A stretch of DNA of 64,000 bases from Catenovulum maritimum (GTDB taxonomy: Bacteria > Pseudomonadota > Gammaproteobacteria > Enterobacterales > Alteromonadaceae). Of the stretch, positions 9,878-52,911 are shown in pieces. The DNA lies in the NCBI RefSeq assembly GCF_001050375.1, contig NZ_KQ130486.1, positions 122,880 through 186,879 of the forward strand, written 5' to 3'. The notes beneath the pieces were generated by a model that was not told where the DNA came from, ran no database searches, and worked only from the letters and a program-made list of their open reading frames with translations. Both the position numbers and the translations under genes were made by a program. Each line of letters starts with the position of its first letter. Within the stretch, counting starts at the first letter, position 1.

Positions 9878-10819
9878 ATGTTCGCAAATCCCTTTAAGCT
9901 CGCCGAGATTGGCATCTTAGGCATGAATGAGCGCAATATAAATTATATTTCGAAATATAATCCAAGAGCGCTTTATCCCTTAGTCGATGACAAATTGCAG
10001 ACTAAGCAGCTATTAACAGATGCCAAAATAAACGTTCCCAGCTTGATCTCGACAGTTCACCAACAAATCCAAGTTAACAACTTAATTGATTTACTGCCAA
10101 AACAAGGTGGCTTTGCAATCAAACCGGCTCATGGTAGTGGTGGTAAAGGGATACTAGTGATACTTTCACAAAGTGAAGGCACTTATACTAAGTCGAACGG
10201 CGAACCGCTCTCGCTTAAACAACTTGAACATCATTGCTCCAATATCCTCGCTGGCCTCTATAGTTTAGGTGGCCGATATGATGTTGCGCTTATTGAAAAT
10301 TTAATCGAGTTTGATCCGATTTTCGATGGCTATTCTTTTGAAGGTGTACCGGATATCAGAGTCATTATTTTCCAAGGATATCCAATCATGGCGATGATGC
10401 GGCTATCCACTAAAGCATCTGATGGCAAAGCCAACCTTCACCAAGGTGCAGTGGGTGTGGGCGTTTCGATAGCAACTGGAGAAGCTCTTAATGCCGTTCA
10501 ATTTGGCAAGCCGATCGAGTTTCACCCTGATACCAACAAAAAGCTTAACGAATTAAAAATTCCGGATTGGCAAAACTTATTAACTTTAGCAGCCCAATGT
10601 TATGACCACTCCAATTTAGGTTACCTTGGAGTGGATATTGTCTTAGACAAAAATATCGGCCCTTTAGTATTAGAGCTCAATGCAAGACCAGGCTTATCCA
10701 TTCAGGTCGCCAATGACCAAGGCTTAAAACCTAGATTAAAGTTAATTGAACAACAAACTGAACTAAGAGATGCAGCTGCCAGAGTTGCGTTTAGCCGAGA
10801 GTTTATTGAGGTTAAGTAA
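9878..10819 (+). CDS. Alpha-L-glutamate ligase-like ATP-grasp protein (RimK-related)
   Basis: I place the start at the ATG at 9878, two bases after the upstream stop; an in-frame TTG at 9866 would overlap it. The product is 313 residues. ATP-grasp features are GGFAIKPAHGSGGKGILV near 82 (nucleotide-binding loop), DIRVIIFQGYPIMAMMRLST near 165 and VLELNARPGLSIQVAN near 265 (metal-binding Glu/Asn). The family (TIGR02291-type) is related to RimK, which adds glutamate to peptide chains. With the retropepsin-like and inactive transglutaminase partners it probably forms or edits an amide bond on an unknown peptide. The gene ends six bases from the convergent helicase gene. Confidence 0.85.
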   Translation: MFANPFKLAEIGILGMNERNINYISKYNPRALYPLVDDKLQTKQLLTDAKINVPSLISTVHQQIQVNNLIDLLPKQGGFAIKPAHGSGGKGILVILSQSEGTYTKSNGEPLSLKQLEHHCSNILAGLYSLGGRYDVALIENLIEFDPIFDGYSFEGVPDIRVIIFQGYPIMAMMRLSTKASDGKANLHQGAVGVGVSIATGEALNAVQFGKPIEFHPDTNKKLNELKIPDWQNLLTLAAQCYDHSNLGYLGVDIVLDKNIGPLVLELNARPGLSIQVANDQGLKPRLKLIEQQTELRDAAARVAFSREFIEVK

Positions 10820-33435: not shown

Positions 33436-33609
33436 AAGTAGTCCCTCTAAAATAATGTTAGGTTAGAAGCCCCCCTATATTAAAAGTTCAAAAAACAATC
33501 ACATTTAAAATTGAACGGCTTAAATTAAGTACCTGAATTGCTAATCTGAATTAAATCTATTAAAGTGCGCCGCATAATCTAGGTGTCTTTTTTAGCTTTA
33601 TCGTGAAAA
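33436..33609. other. Gene-free leader/promoter region
   Basis: About 170 AT-rich bases between the divergent signal peptidase gene and the cobalamin riboswitch. Promoters for both directions must lie here. I see no clear -35/-10 pair and no further structure. Confidence 0.4.
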
Positions 33610-33768
33610 CAAAAATAGGTTAAAAAAGGTGAAACGTGAAACAGGTTAAAAGCCTGTACTGCCCCCGCAACGGTAACTGTGAGCATCAACAAAAACCACT
33701 GTATTTTTATAATATGGGAAGGTGTTGAACTGCGATGAACAGGAGTCCGGAGACCGGCCTAAGATTAA
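33610..33768 (+). promoter_or_regulatory. Cobalamin (AdoCbl) riboswitch
   Basis: The B12-box is explicit: GCCTGTACTGCCCCCGCAAC followed by GGTAA (33651-33675). An upstream ACAGG arm (33641-33645) pairs with GCCTGT. GGGAAGG is at 33716-33722 and the closing segment GGAGTCCGGAGACCGGCCT at 33742-33760. These are the conserved core parts of the cobalamin riboswitch in the correct order. Downstream, CTGCGGTGGGCGGC (33776-33789) is GC-rich and could act in the expression platform. High cobalamin should repress the B12 uptake and salvage operon that follows. Confidence 0.95.
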
Positions 33769-33928
33769 CTCTAGACTGCGGTGGGCGGCTTCTTCAGAGA
33801 ACGACATATAATAAATCCAGACAGTAAAGCACTATCTAAAGCGATAGCAATGGGCTTTGTTGCTGCTGGAACTCCCCTTGTCTTTCCTGTGTTGCTTGTT
33901 TATCGTCCAATTTACAGGATGCAAAAAC

Positions 33929-45214: not shown

Positions 45215-45745
45215 TTACTCTGTGCCAATACCGTAAAACTCATCAATACTCGCCCAATCTTGCCGGTAAACATTATTTTTTACATATTGATGAAAACTTG
45301 AATAAGGCCAATCTTTAACTTGCTTTACCAAACCATGTTTAACAGGATTCCAATGAATATAATCAATATGTCGGGCATAATCTTCATCATCCCTGATAAC
45401 ATGCTCCCAAAATCGTCGTTGCCATATCCCACGCTCTTTGCGTTTTTGACGACTTTGAGAACACTTTTCACTTGGCGCAAGCTGTCGAGAAAATCCAGAT
45501 TTAATCAACGACCAACGAATACCAAAATCCGCATCATTCGGTGGTAATGTCCATACACAATGTAAGTGTTCTGGCAAAATAACAATTGCATCTATGGTAA
45601 ACGGATGAGTTGATTTAACTTTTCGAAAAGCATGGCGAAGCGCAGATATGTTATCGGTTAACACTGAATTATTTGTTCGCGTCGCACAAGCAAGAGTAAA
45701 AAAATAAGTACCGCCTTTTATCTGTGCTCTTCTATAATTTGTCAT
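45215..45745 (-). CDS. REP-associated tyrosine transposase (RAYT)
   Basis: 176 residues of the Y1 HUH superfamily. The metal-binding His-x-His is ILPEHLHCVWTLP near 60 and the catalytic Tyr is in HIDYIHWNPVKHGLV near 131 (Tyr near 131). The ending WPYSSFHQYV is typical of the RAYT branch of IS200/IS605-like proteins. These single-copy domesticated transposases cut DNA at GTAG beside REP hairpins. Three such hairpins (45157, 45802, 45879) flank this gene. The gene looks intact. Confidence 0.93.
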   Translation of the reverse strand: MTNYRRAQIKGGTYFFTLACATRTNNSVLTDNISALRHAFRKVKSTHPFTIDAIVILPEHLHCVWTLPPNDADFGIRWSLIKSGFSRQLAPSEKCSQSRQKRKERGIWQRRFWEHVIRDDEDYARHIDYIHWNPVKHGLVKQVKDWPYSSFHQYVKNNVYRQDWASIDEFYGIGTE

Positions 45746-46014: not shown

Positions 46015-46203
46015 ATTGGTTGCCGTGAGATGATTTTAAAGGAGTAACAAAAGGTCTCAACGTCAGGTGTGTGGAGTTGCCTCCTCTTATCAAGACTCAT
46101 CCGAACTTTGCAGGTTCGCTGTTTTTCTTGACAGAAAACATAACCAACCGAAATTAGTTATTTGAGTTATATTGACCTCTTGTCACACCGAAATAGTAAC
46201 GCC
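46015..46203 (-). ncRNA. Candidate non-coding RNA of the DRT3-like locus
   Basis: Gene-free stretch directly after the second RT gene on its strand. Read on the minus strand it forms, in order: a 7-bp stem UAACUAA/UUGGUUA (46141-46160), UUUUCU/AGAAAA (46121-46139), CGAAC/GUUCG (46102-46118), then GGAG-GCAA-CUCC with a GNRA loop (46073-46084) that runs straight into CACACAC (complement of 46067-46073). Type 3 DRT systems are known to carry an ncRNA, and I recall an ACACAC template being reported for it. Boundaries are approximate and expression is unproven. Confidence 0.5.
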
Positions 46204-48294
46204 TTAGTATACCGGATTCAACTCCTTCCGAGCTAATAACTCATATAAATCTAGGCTAGACCATTTAACAAACCAATAGGTTTTCAATAACTCAGCCAGC
46301 ACACACTCGTTGGAGTAATCATCATTAGTGTTAGATAGGTCCATTAATTCAGTATTTGTTTGACGTTCTATACCTAATAGCGCCTGCCTTACTTCTTTTG
46401 AAATATATGGACAACACATTAAATCAAGAAATAGGTGGATAGCTTCGGAATCTTTTGACAAGTCTGCCCTCAACACTTTCTGTAAGCTTGACTTTTCGAG
46501 CCTAGAAACTATTTCTTTATATTGTTCATGTCCCTTACAATAATATAGTAGAGATACTATTTCAAAATAGCTTGGCTCTTCATTTTTATTAATCATTTGT
46601 TGTATTAGGTCGGCACTAACAAGGTAGTTATCGTTAAACTCACTAGTAGCTAAAAGAATGTTCAACTGCTCTATATGAGTAAAACCTTCCCTATAACTGT
46701 CCTCATGGGAGAAATACAGGTTTTCAGATATGCTAGCCATTATAAAGCTTCTCATGAAAGCAAGGTGTTCTGGCATTTCTGCTGAGACAAATCTATCTAT
46801 CTTAATTATGGATTGAGAAACTTTGTTTGAAGCACTTAACGAAGGTTTTACGCTGTAAAAAAACAAAGTCAGATTTAACAGAAGCTCCAATGCATCTCTA
46901 AAAACTAATACTCTATCATGTACTTCTTGCTCCAAATTTTTATCTTCTTTTAATGCCTTTTGACTAATGTTCTTCATATAGGCTCGGTAATGCAAAATTA
47001 CTTCGTTAATTCTTTTGTTAAACACGGAAATTAGAAAGTTTGAAGGCAAAGAGTAGTCACTTTTGTTTTCTATACATAATTTTTTAACTTTATCGATGAA
47101 GTTATTTTTGAATCCAAACTTACGGTAGATTTTTTTGGGGAACAATTGTCTTTGTTTATTGAAATATTGAACTTCAAATAGAGAGGATTCTAGCTCGTTT
47201 AAAACCATATTTAACCCAACCACCAAAGCAGATTTCTCTGTGCAAAATGGCCTAGAGTATTTATGAGTCTTGGAGTCTGAAAGATATAGATTATATTCGT
47301 TAAGACTGTCGCTGATAGCTTTGTATACTGATTTAGCGACCTTTTCTGATGATGCAAAAATCATATAATCATCAACGTAACGAATAACTTCATAGTCTAT
47401 CTCATGCTTTAAGCCCATTTTTATATCTAGAAATTCTTCTATATTTTTATCTATTTTTTGGAAAATAATTTCTGAAAAGACCCTACTGAACTCGGCTCCG
47501 ATACATATCCCATTTGTTTCGTTGTTGTTACTTCTCTGCATTATGGTATCCATTTTTTGGCATACCTGACTGCTATAGGTAACATGATCTTTAATAAACT
47601 GCTTATCTTTAACAGCCCAAGAAATTGAATGCGTATATATACTGTCGAAACAATTAGCAATGTCTAACAACCACATTTGGTTGTATTTCTTTTCAAGTTG
47701 AACAAAGCGCTCAGAGTTATATATTTTGTATAATCTTGTATAACCCCTATAGGTAAAAAATGACGATGCTGATTTTTTGTAAAGCTCTGACTCTAAGGTG
47801 TCGATATCGATGTTCTTATAATCTTCTGACGAAATTTTGCGAGTACGATTAACTGTAAATGAATTCCCTACTTTGACTGGCGCACGTACAGAAAAATTAC
47901 TTTTGCTACATAGGTAGTTAATTTCAGGACTGTGATCTCTATAAAACTCAGCTAAATTTAATTGTGTCCTAGGGTGCGTTAGAGAAAGCGTGCGTAAACT
48001 GTATTCATTTTTAATAATTTTGTATTTAAAGGGAGATGAATATTTAAGCTTCTTTTGCAGTGCCTCACTTCCATTGTTCAGCTTATTTAAAGTTGGGTCG
48101 ATATGGTTTGCATATATTGAACTTACAATCTTATTGAGCCTATCACCGTTTTCAGTATTAGCTCTATGGGAGTTTACGTAGAAACCTTCATTACTAAAAA
48201 TTATTGGTACATCATTAGGAGCTGTATCGGTAAGTAAACCTCGAAAGTAATCTTTCTTATCTAGTTTAATTTTTTGATTTCTAATTATAGCCAT
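46204..48294 (-). CDS. drt3b: Reverse transcriptase, Drt3b (UG8)-like, of a type 3 DRT antiphage system
   Basis: I choose ATG 48294 (MAIIRNQKIKLDKKDYFRGL), the family-like start, overlapping the first RT by ten bases; an upstream ATG at 48318 also exists. 696 residues. The catalytic palm motifs are intact: LLDIANCFDSIY near 210 (first Asp) and IRYVDDYMIFAS near 306 (YVDD). GICIGAEFSRVFSEII (near 265) matches the RT motif before the YxDD box. An ~300-residue helical C-terminus follows with no known domain. In DRT3 systems this protein works with Drt3a and an ncRNA to block phage. The family call is from layout and motifs, not a profile search. Confidence 0.75.
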   Translation of the reverse strand: MAIIRNQKIKLDKKDYFRGLLTDTAPNDVPIIFSNEGFYVNSHRANTENGDRLNKIVSSIYANHIDPTLNKLNNGSEALQKKLKYSSPFKYKIIKNEYSLRTLSLTHPRTQLNLAEFYRDHSPEINYLCSKSNFSVRAPVKVGNSFTVNRTRKISSEDYKNIDIDTLESELYKKSASSFFTYRGYTRLYKIYNSERFVQLEKKYNQMWLLDIANCFDSIYTHSISWAVKDKQFIKDHVTYSSQVCQKMDTIMQRSNNNETNGICIGAEFSRVFSEIIFQKIDKNIEEFLDIKMGLKHEIDYEVIRYVDDYMIFASSEKVAKSVYKAISDSLNEYNLYLSDSKTHKYSRPFCTEKSALVVGLNMVLNELESSLFEVQYFNKQRQLFPKKIYRKFGFKNNFIDKVKKLCIENKSDYSLPSNFLISVFNKRINEVILHYRAYMKNISQKALKEDKNLEQEVHDRVLVFRDALELLLNLTLFFYSVKPSLSASNKVSQSIIKIDRFVSAEMPEHLAFMRSFIMASISENLYFSHEDSYREGFTHIEQLNILLATSEFNDNYLVSADLIQQMINKNEEPSYFEIVSLLYYCKGHEQYKEIVSRLEKSSLQKVLRADLSKDSEAIHLFLDLMCCPYISKEVRQALLGIERQTNTELMDLSNTNDDYSNECVLAELLKTYWFVKWSSLDLYELLARKELNPVY

Positions 48295-49533
48295 ACTCTT
48301 GTAATTTCCTTTAACCAATATGGAGTAAACTTCTTATATATCCTGTTCTTAAAGCCGCTCTTGAATGAAGACTGCAACAATCTGCGCTTTTGGTTCAAAC
48401 TCAAAGTTGGCGTGCCCGGTTTATGAAAGAGGTTGTCATAACTCATTACAAATTTTCGTAAACTTTCATCCAATCTATTTAAAGCGCAGCTATTTGGGTC
48501 AATTAAGCTGTAGTTGTAATAAATCCCGGTGGGAATCTTATTGCCCGTAGATTTTTGAACCAAATCCCTGTTAGTTGTTAAAAATTTGATTCTAGAATTT
48601 AATAAATCAAAGTCGCCTGTGTTGCAATAATTTACCAAGGCTTTACAGAGCTTAGATTCAAACTGTTTTACTTTAAAATCAGAGAGATCAACAATAACCT
48701 TTCTATAACGTGCATTTTTTTGTTTAGATGATATCTGGTAATCCTGAACCTCAAACTTGTACCCCAAGTAATTAAATGCGGCTACAGGGTTATTAGAACC
48801 TGCACTTCTATTTTCAACATCGATTATTTTCGTTTTGTTGTAGTTGAGAGTGATCCCTTCTGGCAAAGTAGAGCTTATCTTCTTTAGAAAGCTTTTTTTG
48901 TCCTCAGATTTGGTCGTGATCAACAAAATATCATCGACAAATCGAGAGTAATAGATAACGTCATTGCCTCTTTTTATCTCTTTGTCAAAGTTCTTCAATA
49001 TAAGTTCAGCAATTATTGGGGAAAACTCTAGTCCCCTTGGTAATAAGTCAGGAAAGTGCGAAAGATAGCCAAGCAAGATATTTTGGGTGTGAGTTGATAA
49101 ATGAGGTTGTTGTAGGCATTTTTTAATGAGTGCTTTATTTACTGATTCAAAAAAAGATTTGATGTCGAGTTTATAAACCCTATATTCAGTTCCTTCAGCC
49201 AAAGAAATAAGATCTTATTTCTTTGGCTATTTGACTCCGACTTTTCAGTTTTACTTTAGAACAACTAATAAGATTTTTAACACATTTACGTAATACTACT
49301 TTTTCCTCCAAAGAATCAGAGAAATAGGTTTTCTTGCCTTTCTTTTTGTCACTTTCAGTAAAATAAAAGCTGTCAAATGAAGCTCCATTTTTGAACGTTG
49401 AATCTGCCTTTATTAATGCGTTTTCAATTAACTTTGACCCATGCTTTTCGTCAGAAAGCATGTCGTTGTTATAAAAGTCCTCAGGTATTAAACAGCGAGC
49501 TAAAGCAGACTTACTAAATGATTGGCTTTTCAT
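48285..49533 (-). pseudogene. drt3a: Reverse transcriptase, Drt3a (UG3)-like, split by a frameshift
   Basis: Two frames make one RT. 49195-49533 codes 112 residues (MKSQSFSKSALARCLIPEDF ... RSQIAKEIRSYFFG, stop). 48285-49202 codes 305 residues in the +1 frame from a TTG (AEGTEYRVYKLDIKSFFES with the first catalytic Asp; YYSRFVDDILLITT, the YxDD box). The second part lacks the fingers region, which the first supplies. Joined at about 49212-49216 they give ...AKEIDLISLAEGTEYR..., the natural family order, ~413 residues. The break falls inside a perfect 32-bp palindrome. It could be a one-base insertion, a programmed +1 shift, or a sequencing error. Confidence 0.72.
49197..49228. repeat. Perfect 32-bp palindrome at the RT frameshift
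   Basis: AGCCAAAGAAATAAGA (49197-49212) is followed at once by its exact reverse complement TCTTATTTCTTTGGCT (49213-49228), with no spacer. The symmetry ends at 49196/49229. It covers the exact window where reading frame changes in the first RT gene. Confidence 0.95.
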
Positions 49534-49767
49534 AAAAATTCCATTTTAAAGTGATTATTTAGCTAAATATTAAGTATATTTGAATATAACAAAATCTATT
49601 ATCTATCACCATCTAGCAATCAAATAAACAATTAGAAGCAAGCCATGCAAATAAGCATATCTAGATATACGCTTCATATAATGTAAATGCGCGTAGAAGC
49701 TGATTTTCTTTATTAATCCGATACTCCATACATATCTGACAACTTCAGCTAGGGCTTCCCTGGATAA
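49534..49767. other. Upstream region of the RT operon
   Basis: About 230 AT-rich bases with no gene. It must hold the promoter. A 12-bp palindrome ATATCTAGATAT (49657-49668) sits inside AAGC ... GCTT arms (49653-49674), ~120 bases before the RT start, and could bind a regulator. No ACACAC or structured RNA was seen here. Confidence 0.4.
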
Positions 49768-49798
49768 CGTCAGGTGGCGCTTCGCTTACCAGACCTAC
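49768..49798 (-). repeat. REP element, family B, copy 1
   Basis: On the minus strand GTAG then the hairpin GTCTGGT ... ACCTGAC (one T-T mismatch). This is a second REP family, different from that around the RAYT gene. Confidence 0.75.
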
Positions 49799-49906
49799 AA
49801 AAGTGTAACAATTTTCTTATAGGTGTTTATTCAGTGAATTTCTGAAAGCAACTAATAATTTGTATGGAATACCGAAGCTCGAAAGCAACTCAGGTGGTGA
49901 TTTCAA

Positions 49907-49937
49907 CGTCGGATGGCACTCCGTTTATCCGACCTAC
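49907..49937 (-). repeat. REP element, family B, copy 2
   Basis: On the minus strand GTAG then the perfect 7-bp stem GTCGGAT ... ATCCGAC. Same orientation as copy 1, 139 bases apart. The 10-mer GAAAGCAACT occurs twice between them (near 49843 and 49881). Confidence 0.8.
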
Positions 49938-49953
49938 TTTACCCTAATAAACA

Positions 49954-49979
49954 AAAAAGCGGCTCACGAGCCGCTTTTT
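49954..49979 (-). terminator. Strong terminator after gcvP
   Basis: AAAAAGCGGCT and AGCCGCTTTTT form a perfect 11-bp stem around a four-base loop, with T runs on both strands. It lies 22 bases past the gcvP stop and works in either direction. Confidence 0.92.
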
Positions 49980-50001
49980 GATTTGAAGAATAAATCAGAT
50001 T

Positions 50002-52911
50002 TTACTCCGCATAACTCTCTGTCGTAGGGCAGCTGCAGATTAGATTGCGGTCGCCGTATACATCATCGATGCGGTTTACCGTTGGCCAGAATTTATTGGC
50101 TTTAGTCGCAGCGGTTGGGAATACTGCGTTTTCTCGGCTGTAAGCTCTGTTCCACTCAACATCTACCATGTCTGCAGTTGTGTGTGGTGCATTTACCAAT
50201 GGGTTGTCTTCTAGCGTGTATGCGCCGGTTTCAACCATATCAATTTCTTTACGAATTGAAATCATAGCTTCGATAAAGCGATCAATTTCACATAAAGGCT
50301 CTGATTCTGTTGGCTCTACCATTAAAGTACCTGCAACAGGGAATGACATAGTTGGCGCATGGAAACCATAATCAATTAAACGTTTTGCTATGTCTAATTC
50401 GGTAATACCAGAGCTTGCTTTTAACGGACGTAAATCAATAATACATTCGTGTGCAACTCGGTCGTTTTGACCCGTGTATAAAATTGGGTAATGTGGTGCT
50501 AAACGCTTAGCCATATAATTAGCATTTAAAATAGCCACTTGAGTTGCTTTGCGTAAACCCGCGCTGCCCATTAATGCAATATAAACCCAAGAGATAGTTA
50601 AGATACTTGCACTACCCCATGGCGCTGCCGATACCGCACCTGTTTTTTCATTTACTGGGTGTGTTGGCATAAATGGCGCTAAGTGAGATTTAACCCCAAT
50701 TGGTCCCATACCTGGGCCACCGCCACCGTGTGGAATACAGAAAGTTTTATGTAAGTTTAAATGCGATACATCAGAGCCCATAAAGCCAGGTGAAGTGATT
50801 TCTACCTGTGCATTCATGTTGGCACCATCCATGTAAACTTGGCCACCGTGCTGATGTACTATGTCACAAATTTCACGGATGGTTTGCTCATAAACACCAT
50901 GCGTTGATGGGTAAGTGATCATGATGCAAGATAAGTTGTCAGCGAGTTCTGCTGCTTTTTGACGTAAGTCGTTTAAGTCAACATTACCTTTGTCGTCACA
51001 AGCCACAACCACAACTTTCATGCTTGCCATTTGCGCAGATGCTGGATTTGTACCATGCGCTGAGCTTGGGATTAAACAGATATTTCTGTGATGATCGCCG
51101 CGGCTTTCGTGGTATTTACGAATCGCGATTAAACCAGCGTATTCACCTTGCGCACCCGAGTTTGGTTGCATGCTAATTGCATCGTAACCCGTAATTTCAA
51201 CTAACCATTCGCCAAGTTGGTCCATCATTTGGTGATAACCTTTAGCTTGGTCTAATGGTACGAATGGGTGCAAGTTGCCAAATTCTGGCCAAGTGACTGG
51301 GATCATTTCCGCTGTTGCGTTTAGTTTCATGGTACATGAGCCAAGTGAAATCATAGAGTGATTTAAGGCTAAATCTTTATTCTCTAATGATTTTATGTAA
51401 CGCAACATTTCTGTTTCTGAGTGATGAGTGTTAAACACTTCGTGACTTAAGTAGTCTGTTTCACGCGCTAATTCAGCTGGAATACCACTTTGCCCAACCG
51501 CTTCAGAGTCTAATGCTTCAACTGATAAACCATGACCTTCGCCTAATACTACGTCGAGTAATACAGCTAAGTCTTTCGCCGTCGTCGTTTCGTCAAAGCT
51601 CACACCAATTTGGTTTGCTAAATCTGCTCTTAGGTTAACTTCAGCTTTATCTGCTCTTGCTAAAATTTCATCTTTGCTATTTTGACCAGCATCAGTGGTT
51701 TCAAAACAAATCGTATCAAACCATGCTTGGTTGATTAAGTTTACGCCTTTTGCTTTTAATGCATTAGCGAAAATACTTGCCACACGATTAACACGTTTTG
51801 CAATGCGATCTAAGCCTTCTGGGCCATGGTAAATTGCATAAAACACAGACATGTTGGCTAATAATACTTGAGCAGTACAAATATTAGAGTTCGCTTTTTC
51901 ACGGCGAATGTGTTGCTCACGTGTTTGCAAAGCCATACGGAGTGCTAAGTTACCGCGAGTATCTTTTGATACCCCAATAATACGACCCGGTAATGAGCGC
52001 TTTAATTTGTCTTTAGTTGCAAAGAATGCCGCATGTGGACCACCATAACCCATAGGTACACCAAAACGCTGAGCATTACCTAAAGCGATATCAGCGCCAA
52101 GCTCACCTGGTGATTTTAATTGAGTTAATGCCAATAAGTCGGTCGCAACAGCAACTAAGCCTTTGTTGTCTTGAACTTGTTTGATTAAAGCTTCAATTGA
52201 ATAAACGTTACCGTAAGTATTTGGGTATTGGAATAAAGCACCAAATACATTGTGATTAACCACGTTTTCAGCTGGCTCAACAACCGTTTCAAAACCGAAT
52301 TGCTCTGCGCGAGTAACCACAACATTAATCGTTTGCGGATGAATATCGTCGGCAATAAAGAATAAGTTCGATTTTTTGTTTTTACTGGTACGTTTTGCCA
52401 TCGCCATCGCTTCGGCAGCTGCGGTTGCTTCGTCAAGTAATGACGCATTAGCGATTTCTAAGCCAGTTAAATCAATCACCATTTGTTGGTAATTTAATAA
52501 CGACTGTAAGCGACCTTGCGCAACTTCTGGTTGGTAAGGCGTATAGGCTGTGTACCAACCTGGATTTTCTAGCACGTTACGTAAAATCACGTTAGGCGTA
52601 TGGTTTGGGTAGTAACCCATACCAATATAAGATTTGTAGATTTTATTTTGGCTAGCAATTGCTTTTAAGTCAGCCAGTACGTCGACTTCTGTTTGCGCGG
52701 TTACTTTGCTGTCTCTGTCTTGATTGCTTTGAGGTAACAAAATATCGGCAGGCACAGTTTGCGCTATTAAGTCGTCCAGCGAAGTGGCGCCTAGTGTCGC
52801 TAACATGTGTTGCTGCTCTGCGGCATCCGGGCCTATGTGTCTTTGAATAAATTCTTCGCTGTTATGTAACTTTGATAATGACTGCGTTAATGGCAATTGT
52901 GTGCTCATCAA
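50002..52911 (-). CDS. gcvP: Glycine dehydrogenase (decarboxylating), P protein
   Basis: 969 residues, the usual full length of the fused bacterial P protein. Both halves are present; the first includes [17 protein letters not shown] near 22 and [15 protein letters not shown] near 120. The PLP lysine is in [18 protein letters not shown] near 715. It decarboxylates glycine and passes the aminomethyl group to the lipoyl arm of GcvH. It is third in gcvT-gcvH-gcvP, behind a hairpin in the 146-base gap after gcvH. No E3 (lpd) gene is nearby; it is normally shared with other complexes. Confidence 0.97.

Follow-up and report, generated by a model that had tools for sequence, protein, structure and literature searches.

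The window analysed here, a stretch of 64,000 nucleotides from Catenovulum maritimum, raises the question of how the first gene of an anti-phage cassette came to change reading frame inside a perfect palindrome, and whether a working protein is still to be expected from it. The gene, drt3a, heads a DRT3 cassette on the minus strand (Table 1). Its 112-residue N-terminal piece matches positions 1–102 of the Drt3a profile PDLC02175 and its 305-residue C-terminal piece positions 104–414; because these are consecutive parts of one profile, the frame break is real, and its position at the palindrome bears out the initial annotation. The N-terminal piece ends in a UGA at the palindrome's edge (49195–49197), the U being the last base of the palindrome on the coding strand, and the C-terminal piece also matches RVT_1 and contains DIKSFF and FVDD, which we take to be reverse transcriptase (RT) motifs. 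The adjacent second gene, drt3b, is recognized by its match to PDLC02176. According to PMC13174585, the DRT3 RNA lies downstream of DRT3b and carries a conserved ACACAC template; this hexamer is present within 300 nt downstream of drt3b in all six homologous loci examined (L037–L042). Like EcoDRT3 (PMC13174585), the cassette combines Drt3a and Drt3b with an ACACAC-bearing region downstream, but it differs from EcoDRT3 in that drt3a is split over two frames, so that its RTs are not both intact. It is a DRT3 locus with a broken first RT gene, not a complete system.

Table 1. Features of the DRT3 cassette and of the palindrome (window coordinates)
Feature	Coordinates	Strand	Basis
drt3a N-terminal piece, 112 aa, portion ahead of the RT catalytic motifs	49195..49533	-	ORF list, profile match
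drt3a C-terminal piece, 305 aa as listed from TTG by the ORF finder	48285..49202	-	RVT_1 match
drt3b, intact, 704 aa as listed; ATG at 48294 is the likely start	46204..48318	-	PDLC02176 match
Region after drt3b, where the DRT3 non-coding RNA is described to lie; the block of 95% identity ends with it	46041..46203	-	Alignment; RNA place from PMC13174585
ACACAC, presumed Drt3a template	46067..46072	-	Sequence; role from PMC13174585
Perfect 32-bp palindrome, spacer 0; drt3a frame breaks inside	49197..49228		Palindrome survey
Derived arm (3' arm on coding strand); 4 bases longer than in sister cassette L038	49197..49212	-	Alignment
Putative donor arm (5' arm on coding strand); length as in sister, one base differs (GCC here, GGC in sister)	49213..49228	-	Alignment

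The palindrome is exactly as first annotated, two 16-base arms without a spacer, and from base composition only about 3e-5 arms of this kind are expected per 64 kb. We surveyed 464,000 bases, the window plus 20 stretches of 20 kb (400 kb) out of a genome of 4,547,332 bases, and found it to be the longest zero-spacer palindrome in this sample, the runner-up having arms of 14 bases. When spacers of up to 8 bases were allowed in the same sample, one inverted repeat (in L047, with arms of 17 bases) exceeded it, indicating that long inverted repeats per se are not rare in this genome, and several more had 14-base arms, some of them terminator-like by eye. Across the whole genome the 32-bp palindrome occurs at a single place even with up to three mismatches permitted, which rules out a dispersed repeat. 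Within the window, the second-longest zero-spacer palindrome measures 20 bp (9942–9961).

To place the break in an evolutionary context, we compared the locus with its homologues. Of five loci recovered by a search of genome contigs, the nearest, 94% identical to the C-terminal piece, belongs to Psychrosphaera sp. B3R10 (L038); this is the single closely related cassette found. It aligns with window positions 46041–49546 at 95.2% DNA identity, a block that opens 13 bases ahead of the drt3a start and extends to the RNA region, and its drt3a is one open frame of 416 codons. At the site of the break L038 shows the inner 16-bp palindrome AAATAAGATCTTATTT alone, with GGCTGAAGG immediately after it; the window has four additional bases there, all of them complementary to the opposite arm. 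The only other gap within the two genes and the RNA region is one of 3 bases, in frame, near 49114, and a further 3-base gap lies just ahead of the drt3a start. The L038 locus recurs in a genome of the same family and another genus (G864), L044 lying wholly within L038.

The same site reads through in a single frame, with no insertion, in 15 of 15 homologous loci (L002–L006, L032–L038, and L040–L042; 400–456 aa), of which L005 and L006, and likewise L040 and L041, are much alike; seven of them (L004–L006, L033–L036) share only 27–33% identity and were assigned by alignment rather than by the Drt3a profile, whereas the other eight share about 40% or more. Weaker matches, assumed to be other RTs, were left out of this comparison, and L039, which stands outside the 15-locus alignment, also reads through (449 aa). 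Since none of the 15 homologues has the insertion, the longer form in the window is the derived one. These comparisons change the mutation originally envisaged, the gain of a single base in AAATAAGATC: the window and its sister differ by four bases, located in the arm at 49197–49212, and the restored reading then proposed, AKEIDLISLAEG, is one residue longer than in all 15 aligned homologues. The one-base gain is rejected on both counts.

Several properties of the insert point to the opposite arm as its template. The sister site represents the ancestral type of imperfect inverted repeat, with the inner 16-bp palindrome between imperfect flanks, and the 8-base arms of this inner palindrome are the maximum for any zero-spacer palindrome in the L038 drt3a. 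When each of the 256 tetramers was placed at the site, only one yielded the longest arm, 13 bases; from the sum 8 + 4 + 1 we infer that this is the tetramer observed, whose composition probability is 0.0045. Among 20,000 random 4-base insertions anywhere in the gene, none gave arms of at least 12 bases and one gave arms of at least 11. By inspection of the alignment, the insert equals neither neighboring tetramer in any of its four possible placements, which argues against tandem duplication; slippage likewise fails to explain it. The mutation raised the symmetry of the repeat, its letters being complementary to the other arm. As judged from sequence, the break is thus most likely a derived insertion of four bases for which the opposite arm served as template, and it would belong to the class of quasipalindrome template-switch mutations, which arise during DNA synthesis and are promoted by stalled replication.

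In such mutations, as described in PMC7202029, the nascent strand folds at a quasipalindrome, copies the other arm, and returns to its template; quasipalindromes are mutational hotspots, and the correction proceeds toward symmetry. Applied to this locus, the ancestral gene would have carried, as L038 does, the 16-bp palindrome AAATAAGATCTTATTT with imperfectly matching flanks. During synthesis of the coding strand, the new strand would have folded back at the inner palindrome, used its own 5' arm as template for four bases, and then regained the normal template; the product would have gained four bases, carry two arms of 16 bases each, and be frameshifted downstream of this point. That the extra bases belong to the coding strand's 3' arm fits fold-back during synthesis of that strand, and we infer on these grounds both the replicative origin of the change and the strand concerned. 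Quasipalindrome correction by template switching had already been suggested for this palindrome; the mechanism gains support from the imperfect form in a 95% identical intact cassette, but the size and place of the change had to be revised.

Two features of the site bear on this mechanism. The minimum-energy fold of the L038 site as DNA (−3.7 kcal/mol, with 9 of 200 shuffles folding as well) pairs bases other than those of the inner-palindrome hairpin, as does the minimum-energy fold as RNA, and it is only in the window that this hairpin comes to dominate (−12.5 kcal/mol as DNA). The hairpin that the template-switch model needs is therefore predicted not to be the most stable structure of the L038 site in isolation. 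In addition, a donor-arm codon reads GCC in the window and GGC in L038, and GCC makes the palindrome more symmetric. A single one-arm switch does not account for both this difference and the 4-base insertion; the change may have come either before or after the insertion, and in the homologue alignment the outgroup codons differ too much to polarize it. At a divergence of about 5%, roughly one difference is expected in the 28 shared bases, and so we put no weight on it.

The mutation class is already known, and the present case is a clean natural example of it. The E. coli lacZ QP5/QP6 reporters and the thyA hotspot (PMC7202029) likewise turn an imperfect inverted repeat into a perfect one templated by the opposite arm, and the geometry of the reporters, a 4-bp offset beside an 18-bp quasipalindrome, compares with the four bases beside an inner 16 bp seen here. 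In the reporters, however, the offset is removed and the frame restored, whereas in the window four bases were gained and the frame was broken; moreover, the E. coli cases were selected in the laboratory, while the present event is a natural one deduced from comparison between species. Template switches in yeast coding genes, as PMC8604942 reports them, share the homogenization of short inverted-repeat arms in coding DNA and were also found by comparing relatives, but they comprise multinucleotide substitutions and spacer inversions rather than a frame-breaking insertion in a bacterium. Judged from the search listing, no paper on defense-system frameshifts with palindromes and phage resistance, or on bacterial quasipalindromes, looked comparable to this case; for DRT3, the frameshift passage found in print concerns phage gam mutants.

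The surroundings of the cassette bear on its origin. The flanking gcv genes of the window and L038, which belong to different genera, are 70–72% identical, in contrast to 95% for the DRT3 cassette, and dS is 0.13–0.18 in the cassette vs. 1.8 in gcvP, suggesting that the cassette was probably exchanged horizontally. This exchange was probably recent, and its edges are sharp, one lying 13 bp ahead of the start of drt3a and the other where the RNA region ends. Positions 46100–49800 had no match among plasmids; among viral contigs, one of 14 pattern matches encodes a relative of the C-terminal piece (41% identity), and no viral contig matches the core 20-mer exactly. Six of the seven congeners searched had a gcvP match at the cut-off, and the long ORF beside the gcvP 3' end varies among these six (L066–L071). 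The strong matches of these ORFs are to Gabija GajA, Dsr2, and an MvaI/BcnI-type restriction enzyme (Pfam), and the weak ones to PDC-S49 (two genomes) and HamB; in L038, DRT3 is followed by matches to PDC-S31 and TmtA. The place beside gcvP (window 46041–50002; L038:8956–10917) looks like a defense hotspot, and DRT3 occupies it both in the window and in a second genus. After the cassette comes a match to an IS200-like (Y1) transposase that falls below the Pfam cut-off (45215–45745). The gap between gcvP and drt3a (49745–49960) contains two short sequences that resemble REP elements by eye, and a search of the window plus 400 kb gave no further copies of this gap sequence. Elsewhere in the window, a Cobalamin riboswitch (RF00174) lies on the plus strand at 33564–33776.

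The state of the remaining cassette bears on the age of the break. Relative to L038, dN/dS is 0.23 for the N-terminal piece, 0.15 for the C-terminal piece, and 0.12 for drt3b, values that mostly reflect the time before the break. Polarized by the majority among six outgroups, four amino acid changes fall on the window lineage and nine on that of the sister, with 12 unresolved. Long decay is thus not seen, the cassette being otherwise unbroken with no excess of amino acid change on the window side, and together with the low dN/dS this indicates a break that is probably young relative to the split of the two cassettes. With ACACAC kept as well, the break in drt3a looks recent from sequence comparison, and it is probably a plain loss of function. 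The N-terminal piece lacks the RT catalytic motifs and the C-terminal piece lacks a good start, so that no working Drt3a is expected. Because DRT3 defense requires both RT active sites (PMC13174585), the system in the window is probably off, and a loss of defense through the drt3a break is the probable consequence.

We considered whether the break might exist only in the assembly, the living strain having an intact drt3a. Hairpins can provoke polymerase fold-back in vitro, so that a sequencing, amplification, or assembly artefact could arise at just such a site; the genome is a draft of 47 contigs, and the remainder of drt3a is conserved and otherwise unbroken. Yet four bases with matching sequence on both sides would require agreement among the reads across this position, single-base errors in homopolymers look unlike a 4-base insertion, and the site lies some 61 kb inside a contig of 233,507 bases. 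We therefore regard an artefact as unlikely. Programmed +1 (or −2) ribosomal frameshifting at the hairpin, giving full-length Drt3a, could draw on a strong mRNA hairpin (−21.9 kcal/mol for 71 nt, z −4.9) and on the coding character kept in both pieces; on the other hand, no shift is needed in any of the 15 homologues, the 95% identical sister among them, and none shows a two-frame arrangement with a shift site ahead of a stimulating structure. Furthermore, a stop within the 5' arm closes the downstream frame, and the upstream frame reaches its own stop where the 3' arm ends, which confines any shift to the stretch between, where the hairpin would be unwinding or already unwound, and by eye this interval contains no recognized slippery site or long homopolymer run. 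The programmed +1 shift that the initial annotation offered as an option is thus unsupported, and we consider it extremely unlikely.

Translation of the two pieces as a working split RT, by restart at a TTG near the UGA, would suit the position of that TTG (49200–49202), a few bases before the stop at 49195–49197, and the overlap of the listed ORFs; but the TTG lies inside the hairpin, inspection reveals no purine-rich ribosome site closely before it, and none of the 15 homologues is split, leaving this reading next to no likelihood. The comparisons also fail to support another early suggestion, a reversible on/off switch of a costly defense gene by gain and loss of the palindrome. The toxicity of DRT3 without RecBCD (PMC13174585) could favor off-states, and the hotspot character of quasipalindromes (PMC7202029) could supply them. 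However, correction toward symmetry makes the perfect palindrome an end product, which speaks against reversal; inspection by eye reveals no tandem repeat at the site, and the broken state occurs in none of the 15 homologues, so that a switch appears exceedingly improbable. Weighing these explanations together, we conclude that the DRT3 cassette was acquired horizontally and that, very probably, its drt3a lost its function recently through a quasipalindrome-associated template switch.

Under a more far-reaching proposal, replication would stall because of DRT3 activity itself or of the phage encounters by which this activity is triggered; template switching would become more frequent, and a quasipalindrome built into the cassette would be the place where its toxic RT tends to be broken. 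We think this very unlikely; if true, self-breaking of this kind would be a self-limiting off-path for a costly defense gene. The locus also carries a caution, in that a strong hairpin at a frame break need not mean a frameshift signal. As a probable product of quasipalindrome template switching, the broken drt3a gives the lacZ quasipalindrome reporters of the laboratory a clean counterpart in the wild, whose likely earlier state survives in a 95% identical cassette, and it suggests template switching as one of the ways in which bacteria lose anti-phage systems in nature.
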